The notes under the pieces were generated by a model. The model was not told the origin of the DNA. It did no database searches and saw nothing but the letters and a program-made list of their open reading frames with translations. From Candidatus Bathyarchaeota archaeon (GTDB lineage: Archaea; Thermoproteota; Bathyarchaeia; TCS64), in the NCBI GenBank assembly GCA_018396515.1, contig JAGTQJ010000009.1:1-10252 (forward strand): a stretch of 10,252 nucleotides of DNA. Reading direction: 5' to 3'. Each line of letters starts with the position of its first letter. Position 1 is the stretch's first letter. Position numbers and translations under genes: made by a program. Shown here in pieces: positions 3,448 to 8,633 of this stretch.

Positions 3448-4098
3448 ATGGATGAATATCTCAATAAATTCCATCAAGAAGAAATTAAGATCGATAACCT
3501 AATTAACTATGAGAATCTTCTAAAGTCATGGTTTGCAGACACGCACAAGTGGAGGCGGAGAAGGTTGAACGTGGGGAACCCCGCCGAAGTCGAAGGGATA
3601 AGGGACAAGGATAGGGGTGACCTCCTCAGAGAGCTCTTAAAGCTCCTCTCCGAGGCCTTCGGGGAGGGGCTGGTGACCGTAGCCGTATTCGGCTCGGTCG
3701 CAAGGGGGGAATCCAAGCCCACCAGCGACACAGACATACTGGTCATCGCAGAGAACATGCCTAGAAGCATGAGTGAGAGGATGGAGGCCCTGGCCGGGAT
3801 CCTGATGAGGCTTGAGGCCTCTGAGGCCTGCAGGAGGCTCAGGGAGCGGGGGATCTCCACATGGGTTCAATTCCACCCCCTAATGGTGGATGAGGCGAGA
3901 CTCCACAGGCCAATATACCTAGACATGGTTGAGGACGCCGTCATCCTCCACGACCGAGGAGGGTTCTTCAGATCGATCCTTAACGGGCTGAGGGGGAGAC
4001 TGGAGGAGCTAGGGGCTAGGAGGGTTCGCCTAGGAGACGGCTCCTGGCTCTGGGACCTGAAGCCGGACATTAAGCGTGGGGAGGTCGTCGAGATATGA
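3448..4098 (+). CDS. MNT-type minimal nucleotidyltransferase (antitoxin of MNT-HEPN pair)
   Basis: The nucleotidyltransferase signature is complete: residues 79-96 contain VAVFGSVARGE then SDTD, that is G82-S83, ten residues, D94-x-D96, the ATP/Mg site. In studied MNT-HEPN modules such as MntA-HepT this enzyme adds AMP to the HEPN toxin and silences it, and the same role is inferred here. Its TGA overlaps the HEPN ATG (ATGA at 4095-4098), so the two are coupled. The ATG at 3448 has no ribosome site, and the first 35 or so codons are AT-rich and unlike the rest. TTG 3565 (residue 40) has GGAGG (3551-3555) nine bases upstream and would give a 177-residue protein, close to the family's usual start. 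I keep the long frame but consider 3565 at least as likely. Confidence 0.85.
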   Translation: MDEYLNKFHQEEIKIDNLINYENLLKSWFADTHKWRRRRLNVGNPAEVEGIRDKDRGDLLRELLKLLSEAFGEGLVTVAVFGSVARGESKPTSDTDILVIAENMPRSMSERMEALAGILMRLEASEACRRLRERGISTWVQFHPLMVDEARLHRPIYLDMVEDAVILHDRGGFFRSILNGLRGRLEELGARRVRLGDGSWLWDLKPDIKRGEVVEI

Positions 4099-4535
4099 AC
4101 ACCGAGGCGATGGCTAGAAGCTACCTCGAGGACGCGGCCTACTCCATGGAGGAGGCCAGAGAAGCCCTCGAAAGGGGTAGATACCACAGGGCCGTCAGGA
4201 GGGCTCAGGAGGCCGTCGAGCTCAGCCTAAAGGCGGCGTTAAGGATCCTAGGCATAGAACACCCAAGGGAGCACGACGTAAGCGAAGCCCTGAGAGATGT
4301 GGCCAGAACCAGAGGGATCCCAGACTGGTTCAGGTCGGAGCTAGAGGCACTGATGATGGTGAGCAAGAGGCTGGCATTAGAGAGGGGGCCAGCATTCTAC
4401 GGTGACGAGGGGGCGCTCACCCCCCCTAGGCAACTGTATGGGGAGGAAGACGCCAGAAGAGCGATAAGGGATGCAGAAAAGGTATTTGAATTATGTAATA
4501 GACTATTTGAATGGTGGAAAGATAAACAAACATAA
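4095..4535 (+). CDS. HEPN-domain protein, partner of the upstream MNT
   Basis: A 146-residue, mostly helical protein of the HEPN superfamily. Residues 8-50 give the first long helices (RSYLEDAAYSMEEAREALER then YHRAVRRAQEAVELSLKAAL), followed by the loop GIEHPREHDV typical of archaeal HEPN proteins that pair with MNT. The C-terminal part has FYGDEGALTPPRQLYGEEDA and a last helix of the form A-x-x-D-A-E-x-V-F-E. Many HEPN toxins are RNases with an R-x4-6-H motif in the late helix. At that place I see RLALERGPAFYG, with no histidine, so RNase activity is uncertain. R50-x5-H56 exists but sits in the wrong region. It overlaps the MNT gene by four bases. The last few codons become AT-rich. Confidence 0.82.
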   Translation: MNTEAMARSYLEDAAYSMEEAREALERGRYHRAVRRAQEAVELSLKAALRILGIEHPREHDVSEALRDVARTRGIPDWFRSELEALMMVSKRLALERGPAFYGDEGALTPPRQLYGEEDARRAIRDAEKVFELCNRLFEWWKDKQT

Positions 4536-4747: not shown

Positions 4748-5212
4748 TCACCGTTCGAATGCTTCCGCAAAAATCTCTGGGATTACGAGGTTTGATGTAT
4801 CTTTGCCTTTTGATTCGAGGATTTGTATAAATTTCCTGTCAATTGTAAGGAATGGAATCTTGTGTTCATATGATACTGCATATAATAGGTTGTCTATGAA
4901 ATCCTTATGAACCTCATGGTATAGGCTATATGCTTCAGAGAAGGCTATTGCTCCCGGCGTTACTATTGTGTAGCTGTTTCTTATCGCTTCAATGCCCCTC
5001 TTCACCAAATCCACCTCTCTCTCCGATACAAGTTTTAAGACCTTCCACATCGCCTCCAGCATACAGGCTTCTATATAGCACACCTCAACCCTATGGAAAT
5101 GCTTTATAGCTTCATAGACCTCCCCTTCAACCTCTAAACCTAGAGCCGGGAGGAGGAAGCTCGTATCAACGAGTATCCTGGTTGGGGCCGATATACCTCT
5201 CCTGTTGTTCAA
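4748..5212 (-). CDS. vapC: PIN-domain toxin, VapC-type ribonuclease
   Basis: A 154-residue PIN-domain protein, predicted to be a Mg-dependent RNase. Residues 13-20 (ILVDTSFL) carry catalytic D16; E48 or E53 in YIEACMLEAMWK is the second acid; D104/D107 in HKDFIDNLLYAVS and D125 in FLTIDRKF complete the site. The start is TTG 5212, because no other start codon exists before the first strand. The gene therefore overlaps the antitoxin by 47 bases, and the VDTS strand lies where the antitoxin stops. GGAGAG immediately upstream is a possible but closely spaced ribosome site. The overlap means the toxin is translated with its antitoxin. The protein differs clearly in sequence from the PIN toxin at 297-722, so the two pairs are not a recent duplication. 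Confidence 0.85.
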   Translation of the reverse strand: MNNRRGISAPTRILVDTSFLLPALGLEVEGEVYEAIKHFHRVEVCYIEACMLEAMWKVLKLVSEREVDLVKRGIEAIRNSYTIVTPGAIAFSEAYSLYHEVHKDFIDNLLYAVSYEHKIPFLTIDRKFIQILESKGKDTSNLVIPEIFAEAFER

Positions 5213-5429
5213 CGCTCTCCCGCTCCAGCTCCTCTAGGGTAACCCTTGCAATCTTCCTCCCGTGGAGGGAGAGCCACACAGCATCATGCAAGGGCTCCAA
5301 TACTACCCTCTCCCCATCAACAGTAACCCTCACTCTACACCCCTCCTCCAACCCCAGCCTATCGGAAACAGCCTTCGGGATAACCAATGTGCGCTTCTTG
5401 CCCACCCTCGATATAAAAGTCAGAGACAT
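5166..5429 (-). CDS. vapB: AbrB/SpoVT-type antitoxin with long acidic tail
   Basis: The N-terminus MSLTFISRVGKKRTLVIPKA is the AbrB swapped hairpin, followed by LGLEEGCRVRVTVDGERVVL. The tail LEELERESVEQQERYIGPNQ is acidic and helical and probably binds the PIN toxin encoded by the overlapping gene. The frame is open to a TTG at 5444, but I start it at ATG 5429 (87 residues): the TATA-like sequence at 5460-5467 puts transcription start near 5438, inside or past the longer start, and the motif begins directly after this Met. Autorepression of the pair is expected from the family but no operator repeat is obvious. Confidence 0.85.
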   Translation of the reverse strand: MSLTFISRVGKKRTLVIPKAVSDRLGLEEGCRVRVTVDGERVVLEPLHDAVWLSLHGRKIARVTLEELERESVEQQERYIGPNQDTR

Positions 5430-5459
5430 ACAATTACCAGACAAATCACAATTTTCAGA

Positions 5460-5830: not shown

Positions 5831-6031
5831 GAATTGAATTTTAAGCCGCAGGCCAAAAGAGGCGGTTGAGACGATCCATGGCTAAGGGATTCCAAGAGCA
5901 GGTCTCATGAGAATGAGTTCCAGAACCATAGGCGTCGTAGACCACAGTCCAATGGAAAACCTTGATATCTATTTAAGAGTTTAAAAAATCATTTAAAGTT
6001 AGGAGTTTGAAGTTCTCTTGGATGGGGTAGA
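5831..6031. other. Stretch without an intact gene, with promoter elements at its end
   Basis: One plus-strand frame gives two protein-like pieces around a TAA (RRPKEAVETIHG; then RTIGVVDHSPMENLDIYLRV to TAA 5982-5984), possibly the remains of the toxin relic just upstream, but I cannot assign them. The last 50 bases are AT-rich with TATA-like runs TTTAAAAAA (about 5980-5988) and ATTTAAAG (5991-5998), which lie 34-50 bases before the coiled-coil gene and are its likely promoter. Confidence 0.35.
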
Positions 6032-6568
6032 ATGAACGGGAGCGATATCTTGGAGAGAGTAAGGGGTGAGAGGGGTCTTCTCGAGAGGATTATGAGCAGG
6101 GTTCCTGGCTATAGGGGTTATAAGGAGAAGGAGCTGAGGAGGGAGAGCGACAGGCTGGTTAGGATGGAGGCGGTGGGCAGGCTCAAGGCCTCCAAGGAGA
6201 TCCTGAGGAGAAGGCTCGCGAATCCCATGATGGTGGGGAGGCTGTCGACGGAGGATGCCTGGAGGCTTGAGACCCTATCAGCCCGCCTCGATAGGGTGAC
6301 CCAGAGGATAGAGAGGGCTGCCGCTGGCTACGCGGGGTTCTTCGACGCCGTTAAGGTGAGGGAGGATAAGCTCGAGATGGTATTGCAGCATGACCTGAAC
6401 CTGGTGGAGATGGCTGAGAGGGTGAGGGCCGAGATGGAGAGGGCCTCCGAGGTGGAGACGGGGACTGAAGACTGGAGGAAGGCGATGGATGGGCTGATGA
6501 AAAGGGTTGAGGAGCTAGACGCCCTAATAGACAGGAGGGGCGAGATACTCAGGGGGTTGGAGATATGA
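6032..6568 (+). CDS. Coiled-coil protein associated with SPFH-zinc ribbon protein
   Basis: A 178-residue soluble protein, almost all charged helix, with coiled-coil potential at about residues 1-60, 75-97 and 125-175. It has no signal peptide, membrane helix or zinc motif. Two stretches look like conserved family signatures: PGYRGYKEKELRRESDRLVR (25-44) and GYAGFFDAVKVREDKLEMVL (99-118). From memory, proteins with similar segments are found next to YdjI-like SPFH genes in several bacterial phyla; this should be treated as recollection and not as a database result. It precedes the SPFH gene by 66 bases on the same strand and is probably co-expressed. The role is unknown; a scaffold or adaptor binding the SPFH assembly is the simplest idea. 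It is not PspA by sequence, although a similar place in the cell is conceivable. Confidence 0.75.
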   Translation: MNGSDILERVRGERGLLERIMSRVPGYRGYKEKELRRESDRLVRMEAVGRLKASKEILRRRLANPMMVGRLSTEDAWRLETLSARLDRVTQRIERAAAGYAGFFDAVKVREDKLEMVLQHDLNLVEMAERVRAEMERASEVETGTEDWRKAMDGLMKRVEELDALIDRRGEILRGLEI

Positions 6569-6621
6569 ACATATCATGGGATAAACCTCTAAAATATCTG
6601 AGAGGCGGAGCTAAGATTGGA

Positions 6622-6628
6622 GAGGTGA
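6622..6628 (+). promoter_or_regulatory. Strong Shine-Dalgarno site of the SPFH gene
   Basis: GAGGTGA lies six bases before ATG 6635 and matches the 3' end of archaeal 16S rRNA over seven bases. It fixes the start of the SPFH gene and excludes the nearby ATG at 6631, which is in another frame. Confidence 0.6.
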
Positions 6629-6634
6629 AGATGG

Positions 6635-7672
6635 ATGCCTAAGGTGATCGAGTGGAGGGACGCAAGGGAGGGGGAGATGGTCTGGAGGTATCCCGTAGAG
6701 GAGATAGCCTGGGGGGACAACCTCGTGGTCCACGAGTATGAGGCCGCCGTCTTCTTCAGGGATGGGAAGGCCTACGACGTCTTCAGGGCTGGGAGGCACG
6801 TCCTGACCACCGCGAACCTCCCCCTCATCACGAGGATCCTATCCGCCATGGCGGGCTTCGACAGGGTTCCATTCAGGGCATCCGTTATATTCATCTCCCT
6901 CAAGCAGTTCCTAGGCAGGTTCGGGGCCCAGGGCCAGACCAAGGAGCTCGCCCCCCTCAAGTTCTATGGGAGCTTCTGGTTCAGGGTTGAAGACCCGAAC
7001 CTATTCGTGAACGAGGTTGTGGGGGGCCAGAGCCTATACACGACGGACGGCCTCCAGAGCTTCCTAAGGGGATACTTCAACGAGAGGCTCATCGACACCC
7101 TGAGCCAGTACTCCCTGGCCGAGGTCTACGGAAAGCTCGACGAGACTAGCCTCCTGACCAAGAGCATCCTATTCGAAGCCCTCTCGAGGATCGGCCTTGA
7201 GCTTATAGACCTGAAGTTCGAGGGGATAGACACAACCCCGGAGTGGAGGGACAGGATCTTCTACCTAAGGACAGGGGTGGGAGCCCCGGAGGTCCTGAGG
7301 ATGGAGACCGTCCAGAGGGCAGCGGAGAGCCTATCCAAGAGCCCCGGGGCAGCCTTAGGGGCGGGAATAGCCGTCATCCCACCCCTCTTCCAGCAGCCTC
7401 CGCCGAGCCAGCAGATGATCCAATGCCCAAGATGCGGCTTCCAGAACCCCATGGCCTCAAAGTTCTGCGGGAACTGCGGGGCCCCCCTCCAAGCCGCCGT
7501 GGGAGGGGTTACATGCCCGAAGTGCGGACGCTTAAACCCACCGGGTGCAAAGTTCTGTCTGGAGTGTGGAAGCCCCCTAGCCCAGACCCTCAAATGCCCA
7601 AGCTGTGGATTCGAGGTCCAGCGAGGGGCGAAGTTCTGCCCCAACTGCGGGGCAAAGCTGACCGAGGGGTAA
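6635..7672 (+). CDS. SPFH-domain (YdjI-like) protein with three C-terminal zinc ribbons
   Basis: A 345-residue protein. Residues 1-215 are an SPFH/band-7 domain of the YdjI (COG4260) type: VIEWRDAREGEMVWRYP at the start, then AAVFFRDGKAYDVFRAGRHV, LKFYGSFWFRVEDPNLFVNE and the helical RGYFNERLIDTL. There is no membrane helix, so it would sit on the membrane or on a partner from the cytoplasm. A Pro/Gln-rich linker (249-260) leads to three CxxC-x10-CxxC zinc ribbons with cysteines at 264/267/278/281, 294/297/308/311 and 321/324/335/338. In Bacillus, YdjI helps localise PspA to membranes; a scaffold or sensor role is inferred here. Most YdjI-like proteins I know of have one or two ribbons, so three is on the high side. 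It follows the coiled-coil gene and precedes the arrestin-like gene on the same strand. Confidence 0.88.
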   Translation: MPKVIEWRDAREGEMVWRYPVEEIAWGDNLVVHEYEAAVFFRDGKAYDVFRAGRHVLTTANLPLITRILSAMAGFDRVPFRASVIFISLKQFLGRFGAQGQTKELAPLKFYGSFWFRVEDPNLFVNEVVGGQSLYTTDGLQSFLRGYFNERLIDTLSQYSLAEVYGKLDETSLLTKSILFEALSRIGLELIDLKFEGIDTTPEWRDRIFYLRTGVGAPEVLRMETVQRAAESLSKSPGAALGAGIAVIPPLFQQPPPSQQMIQCPRCGFQNPMASKFCGNCGAPLQAAVGGVTCPKCGRLNPPGAKFCLECGSPLAQTLKCPSCGFEVQRGAKFCPNCGAKLTEG

Positions 7673-7766
7673 GACCCACAAAGGTTGGAGCCCACGAGGA
7701 TTTAAACATGGAGTCAAACTTAAATTGAAATAGGCATTAGGGAACTCGAATTTATGGGGATGGCGG

Positions 7767-8366
7767 ATGTCCTTTCTGAGGAAGCTCAAGGATAAACTCA
7801 CACCTCCAAAGGCCTCTTTATCTCTGAAACTGAATAGGGAGAGCTTCACATTGGGTGAGAATATCGAGGGAGTACTGACCATCTCCTCTGAGGAGGACTT
7901 CGATGCCAAAGATATAAGATGCGAGATCAACTGCACGGAGTCTGTGAAGAAGACGAGAAGGGAGTACGACGAGAAGAAGGGGAGGGAGGTGGAGAGGGAG
8001 GTATGGGAGCATGCAACCCTCTACTCATCAAGGCCGACCCTGAGGGGTGCCACAAGGATCTATAGGGGATATAGGGAGGAGATCCCCTTCAGCATAGGCC
8101 TACCCCCAACGGGGAGACCCACATACAAAAGCATAAACAACAACGTGGTCTGGAACATAAAGGGAGTCATAGGGGTTGATGGCAGACCCGACGTCGTCAG
8201 CAGAACCATGGAGATCCAGGTCGCCCAGCCCATCGCTGCGCCTGTTATAAAGGAGGTCATAGTAAAGGAGAAGGAGGTTGTCATGATACCATGCAAGTAC
8301 TGTGGAACCCTGATGCCCCAGACAGAGACCATATGCCCCCACTGCGGAGCTAGGAGAACAGGGTAA
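7767..8366 (+). CDS. Arrestin/Spo0M-like protein with C-terminal zinc ribbon
   Basis: A 199-residue cytoplasmic protein. Residues 15-155 fit an arrestin-fold beta sandwich: SLSLKLNRESFTLGENIEGV (18-37, the first strands), a variable charged insert (60-82), IPFSIGLPPTGRPTYKS (106-122), and VVWNIKGVIGVDGRPDV (127-143), which together resemble Spo0M and Vps26-type proteins. A linker with VIKEVIVKEKEVVMIP leads to one zinc ribbon, cysteines 176/179/190/193. The ribbon is of the same kind as those in the preceding SPFH protein, which suggests shared binding or assembly. The start is ATG 7767 with GGCGG just upstream; the ATGs at 7754 and 7760 are in other frames. A TATA-like TTAAATTG near 7720-7728 could give it its own promoter within the 94-base gap. 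Function unknown; membrane or protein trafficking is an inference. Confidence 0.82.
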   Translation: MSFLRKLKDKLTPPKASLSLKLNRESFTLGENIEGVLTISSEEDFDAKDIRCEINCTESVKKTRREYDEKKGREVEREVWEHATLYSSRPTLRGATRIYRGYREEIPFSIGLPPTGRPTYKSINNNVVWNIKGVIGVDGRPDVVSRTMEIQVAQPIAAPVIKEVIVKEKEVVMIPCKYCGTLMPQTETICPHCGARRTG

Positions 8367-8633
8367 AACACCACAAGATCGAGCTATCATAGACAGAGAA
8401 CCCCAGATTCACCTTCAGATTCGAGATTCACCCCTTCAACCTTCAATATTCGATGGCAATTCTCTGAAAATCGTCCTCTGAATCTCTCATACCCTTAATC
8501 ATTAATGTCTAGAACTTGAAACCTTGGAGCTCCCCCATGCTCTAGAGACTCCAGGGAGAATTCTTAGATGGCCTAGATCCAAAATCAAGTGGCAGGATTC
8601 CATCTATGATAGGGCCCACCGATATGATGAGGC
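8367..8633. other. Intergenic stretch between convergent genes, with a short direct repeat
   Basis: The arrestin-like gene and the small minus-strand gene converge here. AGATTCACC occurs at 8405-8413 and again at 8424-8432, with AGATTC between them (8417-8422), giving three small tandem copies. I see no gene, tRNA or clear terminator. Confidence 0.35.

Follow-up and report, generated by a model that had tools for sequence, protein, structure and literature searches.

PspA is a protein that serves membrane maintenance in bacteria. The closest described counterpart of the locus studied here is the Bacillus subtilis pspA-ydjGHI operon, in which YdjI, a soluble SPFH protein that has no anchor but bears a zinc-finger motif toward its C-terminus, is needed for PspA to reach the membrane and itself needs the membrane proteins YdjG/YdjH for recruitment (PMC8581546). 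Ravi et al. cover this operon type too, along with other Band-7 partners of PspA (PMC11237479). For archaea, an SPFH-zinc-ribbon protein has been described in Methanobacteriales loci for endosomal sorting complexes required for transport (ESCRT) (Makarova et al. 2024; PMC10936438), Spo0M-type arrestin-clan proteins were placed there by a paper on the origin of arrestins (PMC2515105), SPFH proteins in general are discussed in a vesicle review (PMC6524685), and an SPFH gene stands in the oxidative-stress table of a Haloferax study (PMC12482152). Here we analyze a 10,252-nucleotide stretch of Candidatus Bathyarchaeota archaeon (the window; contig JAGTQJ010000009.1, 19,267 bases, of the 65% complete genome G000), in which three adjacent same-strand genes encode a coiled-coil protein, an SPFH protein with three zinc ribbons and an arrestin-fold protein with one. 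An original prediction made from these letters had joined the three into a candidate membrane-associated module; the gene arrangement, the domain calls and the two conserved signatures that it had noticed in the coiled-coil protein were all borne out.

The archaeal module resembles pspA-ydjGHI in its soluble Band_7_1 SPFH protein with a C-terminal zinc finger (the B. subtilis control matches the same domain) and in the coupling of that protein to a coiled-coil partner. Hydrophobic and zinc-ribbon proteins also stand near it in many archaeal loci, but not in the window's genus. The module differs by a shorter helical protein with no profile similarity to PspA, an added arrestin and three ribbons. 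We propose, at about even confidence, that the module is a PspA-less counterpart of pspA-ydjGHI, in which an SPFH platform works with a helical partner of its own and, in some lineages, with an arrestin adaptor, and that it acts in membrane surveillance or repair. The original prediction had no PspA in view within the window, and PspA (PF04012) was not found elsewhere in the incomplete source genome either. Among 300 genomes of the phylum it exceeded the cut-off in six, of which G274 alone also has the coiled-coil gene.

The firm, conserved unit is the coiled-coil and SPFH pair, with the arrestin as an optional third partner. In a near sample of 61 genomes (the source genome and 60 relatives), 14 carry the coiled-coil gene and 16 the SPFH gene; each of the 14 coiled-coil genes adjoins an SPFH gene, with the order unchanged, and the remaining two SPFH genes sit at contig ends. 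The window's family otherwise holds, within this sample, divergent copies only (G003 and G008). Across the 300 phylum genomes the coiled-coil family is present in 110, from 50 of 127 genera, and in 97 of the 110 an SPFH match follows on the same strand at a distance of up to 300 bp, these distances being measured between matched segments, not gene ends. Ten more carry both on one contig 0.8–3.2 kb apart, with order or strand changed in some, and in three no SPFH match was seen on the coiled-coil contig (G343 has SPFH on another contig, G156 an unlisted match). SPFH matches were present in 170 genomes, of which 136, down to near 4e-12, entered the linkage counts. Similarly, 79 of 80 genome-collection loci picked by coiled-coil motifs contain SPFH; the remaining contig (L041) breaks off within the coiled-coil gene. 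Families are intermingled in the SPFH tree, and in one clade they come from different classes, a pattern suggestive of horizontal spread. In family f40, tentatively Sulfolobales, four loci (L138–L141) carry a diverged coiled-coil gene and a diverged SPFH gene that are rearranged and 0.4–3 kb apart.

The SPFH protein matches Band_7_1 at 1.3e-25 (Pfam), its profile matches stomatins, and it has no transmembrane helix by hydropathy (best 19-residue value 1.2). With its C-terminal zinc ribbons it combines the features of a YdjI-type protein. The three exact CxxC-x10-CxxC ribbons start at residues 264, 294 and 321, and the arrestin-fold protein has one at residue 176; in 5,000 shuffles of either protein the motif count was zero. 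Most aligned SPFH relatives carry two or three ribbons, and the divergent G003 copy none. The gene does not form an SPFH-NfeD operon: the nearest NfeD1b/S49-like gene found lies about 7.6 kb beyond it. In a phage collection, partial SPFH matches were confined to two records.

The coiled-coil protein has no Pfam family. It matches NCBIfam NF047596 (LIMLP_15305, named from a Leptospira locus tag) over nearly its full length (residues 6–172, 4.8e-14), but its 52.6 bits fall far short of the curated cut-off of 210, which no genome of the 300 exceeded; the only paper found to name LIMLP_15305 mentions the locus in a non-coding-RNA table (PMC7567364). An AlphaFold model from a 52-sequence alignment, with a mean predicted local distance difference test (pLDDT) of 83 and a predicted template modelling score (pTM) of 0.80, has five long helices (modelled helices at residues 3–23, 33–62, 65–68, 73–95, 111–139 and 146–175). 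In the same alignment two predicted loops, 24–32 (VPGYRGYKE; mean conservation 3.62 bits) and 96–110 (AAAGYAGFFDAVKVR; 3.35 bits), are the best conserved of nine segments, the remaining seven ranging from 1.61 to 3.00 bits. Given the helix order of an up-down bundle, these loops should lie at one end and form one surface. A PDB sequence search with the profile returned weak generic helical matches only (best 0.005, the TorS sensor). In a protein collection, at least 5,034 of 8,000 scored candidates match at E ≤ 0.001, and none of the 120 matches listed contains a Pfam domain; the plasmid collection gave no match to this query. Its weak similarity to LmuB (8e-4, 15.7 bits) is the sole PADLOC match among the three module proteins.

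Arrestins are cargo adaptors in animals, where they carry two tandem arrestin domains. Two such domains are also reported for Vps26 (PMC2515105). The window's protein differs in having a single sandwich, followed by a linker and the ribbon. It belongs to the arrestin clan by its Arrestin_N match (4.8e-6; 27.1 bits against a cut-off of 24.9), by profile matches in PDB to an arrestin-domain protein, TXNIP and Spo0M (structure 5cl2, 7e-4) and, more weakly, VPS26C, and by its all-beta model. It scores 15.3 bits against the Spo0M family PF07070, below the cut-off of 23. The AlphaFold model (23 sequences; mean pLDDT 89, pTM 0.69) consists of an N-terminal helix (2–11), an all-beta sandwich with block pLDDT values of 92–98 across residues 11–150, a low-confidence linker (158–168) and then the ribbon. 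We do not claim the N-terminal helix as amphipathic, as 5–21% of shuffles score equally.

The original prediction would have been refuted had the three genes been neighbours in no related genome, but they do recur as neighbours; for the pair this is the rule, and for the arrestin the linkage is looser. In the near sample, arrestin matches occur in ten genomes, seven of them covering most of the sandwich, and only the window's genus (G000, G001, G002) has the gene adjoining the pair; in G051, G036, G056 and G060 it lies on other contigs. For the phylum count we kept 48 of 94 matching genomes, those reaching about 1e-18, while the majority of the rest match the ribbon only; four genomes that match the sandwich (G095, G260, G293 and G093) and a second strong arrestin of G327 were left out. 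G093 has a partial arrestin about 1.4 kb from its SPFH gene, G293 has its arrestin on a separate contig, and the SPFH list contains neither G095 nor G260. Among the 42 genomes that have both a strong arrestin and a match to coiled-coil or SPFH, the arrestin is no more than 10 kb from the pair genes in 24 and no more than 2 kb in 17; the share becomes 24 of 44 if G101 and G212, which do have SPFH matches, are counted. Linkage by chance is estimated at about 1.35% per genome, as 20 kb in 1.5 Mb. The linked arrestins span nine families.

Their arrangement varies. In the window's genus, in G258 (1.5 kb away, with other open reading frames between) and in G238 the arrestin follows the pair on the same strand; it is convergent downstream in f11, f31 and G154, divergent upstream in f34 and G215, upstream on the same strand and fused in f26, and 6–7 kb upstream in f28. 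Those linked members of f1, f11, f31, f34 and f50 that the tree includes share a single SPFH clade (14 rows, 100/100) and are therefore not independent cases; the clade also holds G163 (f8), whose arrestin is on another contig. Family f26 with G215, f28, and G238 fall in other SPFH clades. Three f26 genomes carry a fusion of the arrestin to a domain that is a homologue of the zinc-ribbon protein described below (hhalign 99.95%, E 6e-38). This fusion to another module protein is better evidence than the ribbon common to the SPFH and arrestin proteins, from which the original prediction had suggested a shared partner: the motif is real in both, but such ribbons are common and say little about a partner. 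Three further f26 genomes (G063, G212 and G224) have open frames of 362–503 amino acids at their arrestin matches.

Other partners were sought in 124 loci, within 5 kb of the coiled-coil gene, after six duplicates were dropped. Other duplicates may remain, and the shares are not unbiased, because most loci were picked by the coiled-coil motif from Bathyarchaeota. SPFH was found in 123 loci, a zinc-ribbon protein in 72, a small hydrophobic protein in 59, the arrestin in 13, HtpX in nine and a 379-amino-acid coiled-coil/zinc-ribbon protein in three; at least one of the zinc-ribbon, hydrophobic and arrestin proteins was present in 93. In many Bathyarchaeota the gene for the zinc-ribbon protein, of about 250 amino acids, immediately precedes the pair. 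"PepSY-like" is no more than a label for it, as its PF03413 match (E 0.21) is sub-threshold. The small hydrophobic protein has about four helices, read by eye, and comes in two families, found on opposite sides of the pair, which are probably homologous (hhalign 97.3%, a score of the kind that membrane composition inflates). A suggested likeness to LiaF-TM was rejected, as no such Pfam match appeared. Just upstream of a diverged form of the pair stand proteins of 377–379 amino acids with a coiled coil and a C-terminal ribbon (L034:5090-6229, L036:1743-2882, L037:10444-11577), one segment of which resembles a PH-like domain by eye, and in L142 the protein directly after SPFH (7622-8608) has a weak MIT-domain match (0.004, below cut-off), which might connect it to Vps4/ESCRT.

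Four bacterial plasmid loci (Paracoccus, Novosphingobium, Burkholderia and Gemmatirosa) all contain an SPFH gene found with the same profile, and none gave a match in any frame to the profiles of the coiled-coil, arrestin, small hydrophobic and HtpX proteins. On the Paracoccus plasmid SPFH directly precedes a homologue of the archaeal zinc-ribbon protein (L164:4947-6404, 2.4e-21); since the similarity extends beyond the ribbon, this archaeal partner has bacterial relatives. A toxic-anion resistance (TelA-type) protein is encoded two genes upstream of that SPFH gene, and the genes after SPFH on the Novosphingobium plasmid encode DUF4178, DUF350 and polyamine synthase proteins.

If the module is a PspA-less counterpart of pspA-ydjGHI, the SPFH protein would probably oligomerize on the cytosolic face of the membrane, and the coiled-coil bundle would be its dedicated partner in a physical complex, docking in the slot that PspA holds in the B. 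subtilis system. SPFH-ribbon proteins would then be platforms that take different soluble partners, the helical bundle being the one in these archaea. Because neither the SPFH nor the coiled-coil protein has a recognizable membrane anchor, attachment is expected to run through partners: many lineages could use the small hydrophobic protein, the zinc-ribbon protein or both, and those like the window's perhaps the arrestin-fold adaptor. The module's likely role would be to sense or repair damaged membranes, and the arrestin would bring in the cargo, lipid or protein. More tentatively, and with the balance tilting against it, the module may be an ancient PspA-independent surveillance machine in which an unrelated bundle took the PspA/ESCRT-III role on a YdjI-type SPFH protein, with a minimal one-domain arrestin as cargo or lipid adaptor.

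Several observations weigh against a PspA-less counterpart. ESCRT-III hairpin helices are longer than those of the coiled-coil protein, which have 21–30 residues. Homology to PspA is unsupported by profile comparison, which detected no similarity between the two (hhalign 0.3%, with profiles of 52 and 5 sequences). The pair occurs without any of its three partners in 31 of the 124 loci, some of them short contigs, and in the window's own genus a profile search found the small hydrophobic and the zinc-ribbon protein in none of three genomes each. In 18 of the 42 genomes the arrestin is unlinked, on another contig in 13 and 19–113 kb away on the same contig in five. Moreover, 47 of the 61 near genomes lack the coiled-coil gene, which is thus not generally essential.

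The unlinked arrestins speak for the alternative that only the coiled-coil and SPFH pair is a unit and that the arrestin is an independent Spo0M-like protein, travelling with it by chance or shared transfer. This would also account for the four of 48 arrestin genomes showing neither partner (G135, G151, G157, G336), for a possible separate promoter before the window's arrestin gene and for the non-independent cases in the single SPFH clade. We nevertheless consider it quite improbable, given linkage in at least three SPFH clades with differing orientations and a fusion that ties the arrestin to another module protein. An ESCRT-type connection would fit the arrestin profile matches, VPS26C included, and the published Methanobacteriales loci (Meth_adaptin), which share with the module an SPFH-zinc-ribbon protein and adaptor-type beta-sandwich proteins, one of them ribboned; a weak Snf7 (ESCRT-III-like) match on another contig of the source genome (G000:C80, 2.1e-5, below cut-off) points the same way. 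The module differs from those loci in that its sandwich is an arrestin and not an adaptin appendage and its coiled coil is a separate protein. No Vps4, ESCRT-III or adaptin family appeared among the 19 window and contig proteins scanned with Pfam (a subset of the open reading frames), no ESCRT gene was recognized by eye among the printed neighbour clusters, and the Snf7-like gene of G001 is about 90 kb from the module, so that this connection seems unlikely.

HflK/C and YbbK regulate FtsH, and the SPFH protein might likewise regulate an HtpX-type protease in membrane protein quality control, with the coiled-coil and arrestin proteins as adaptors. YbbK is reported to interact with FtsH and possibly to replace proteases including HtpX (Hinderhofer et al.; PMC2636767), and an S49/NfeD1b-like peptidase is encoded downstream on the window's contig. 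This gene is, however, about 7 kb from the module, and the HtpX-like (M48) gene seen near nine of the 124 loci is not within 5 kb in the other 115, the window's included; we regard this explanation as fairly improbable. That the module is cargo of a defence or mobile island is suggested by the toxin-antitoxin-like pairs upstream in the window (two PIN-MazE and one MNT-HEPN), by the mixing of families in the SPFH tree and by the LmuB match of the coiled-coil protein. With no PADLOC match for the other two proteins, and with the pair adjoining a class I lysyl-type tRNA synthetase in 36 loci of other lineages, a housekeeping context that speaks against defence, it is very improbable.

All three genes appear to be under purifying selection, as ratios of nonsynonymous to synonymous substitution rates against G001 of the same genus are low: 0.164/0.763 (about 0.21) for the coiled-coil gene, 0.064/0.581 (about 0.11) for SPFH and 0.081/0.611 (about 0.13) for the arrestin. 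Gene order 3′ of the module is kept in G001 and G002, so the downstream part of the contig, which this comparison covers, belongs to the window's genus and is not contamination. The S49/NfeD1b-like gene on it (L024:15292-17529, − strand) encodes a 745-amino-acid protein that resembles this family at its N-terminus and is 87% identical to its G001 counterpart. Two A/T-rich stretches are possible promoters judged by eye, one a candidate archaeal promoter of the coiled-coil gene and the other a candidate separate promoter for the arrestin gene (Table 1). Upstream of the module lie three toxin-antitoxin-like pairs in total: a VapBC-like pair at 297-966 (−), with a PIN-domain protein (1.2e-12) and an adjoining MazE/AbrB-type antitoxin (1.6e-6); a HEPN-MNT-like pair at 3448-4535 (+), with a nucleotidyltransferase (8.1e-9; PADLOC candidates PDC-S09 match it too) whose gene overlaps that of a HEPN protein (9.1e-23); and a second PIN (1.3e-7) and MazE/AbrB-type (5.3e-8) pair at 4748-5444 (−).

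Table 1. Features of the module in the window, and arrestin fusions in other genomes
Feature	Position	Strand	Description and basis
Coiled-coil/helical-bundle gene	6032..6568	+	178 amino acids, first gene of the pair; open reading frame, AlphaFold model
SPFH (Band_7_1) gene	6635..7672	+	345 amino acids, three C-terminal C4 zinc ribbons; open reading frame, Pfam
Arrestin-fold gene	7767..8366	+	199 amino acids; one sandwich, flexible linker, one zinc ribbon; open reading frame, Pfam, model
Signature 1 codons, PGYRGYKEKELRRES, residues 25-39	6104..6148	+	Loop joining helices 1 and 2, with the first part of helix 2
Signature 2 codons, AAAGYAGFFDAVKVR, residues 96-110	6317..6361	+	Loop joining helices 3 and 4
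SPFH ribbons CxxC-x10-CxxC, residues 264-281, 294-311, 321-338	7424..7648	+	Motif search
A/T-rich stretch, two TTTAA motifs	5971..6000	+	32-60 bases 5′ of coiled-coil start; by eye
A/T-rich stretch 5′ of arrestin gene (GATTTAAAC ... AACTTAAATTG)	7699..7727	+	By eye
Arrestin-zinc-ribbon fusions	L130:5565-7067, L131:4146-5603, L132:9897-11360		Three f26 genomes

The original prediction called such a scaffold new for archaea. This does not hold for its parts, as SPFH-zinc-ribbon and arrestin-clan proteins of archaea are in print; for the pair and the arrestin linkage we found no description in the open literature, judged partly on titles and abstracts and with subscription journals mostly outside, and these, together with the partners, are apparently undescribed. 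To our knowledge, an arrestin and an SPFH protein in one archaeal machine would be the first case. Popp et al. report no Psp domain at all in over half of the 915 archaeal genomes that they surveyed (PMC9239133), which raises the question of how such cells mend their membranes. The coiled-coil gene, found in over a third of the phylum genomes and mostly beside SPFH, offers concrete candidate proteins for this task, and a stripped-down arrestin beside SPFH in archaea bears on the origin of arrestin-type adaptors.

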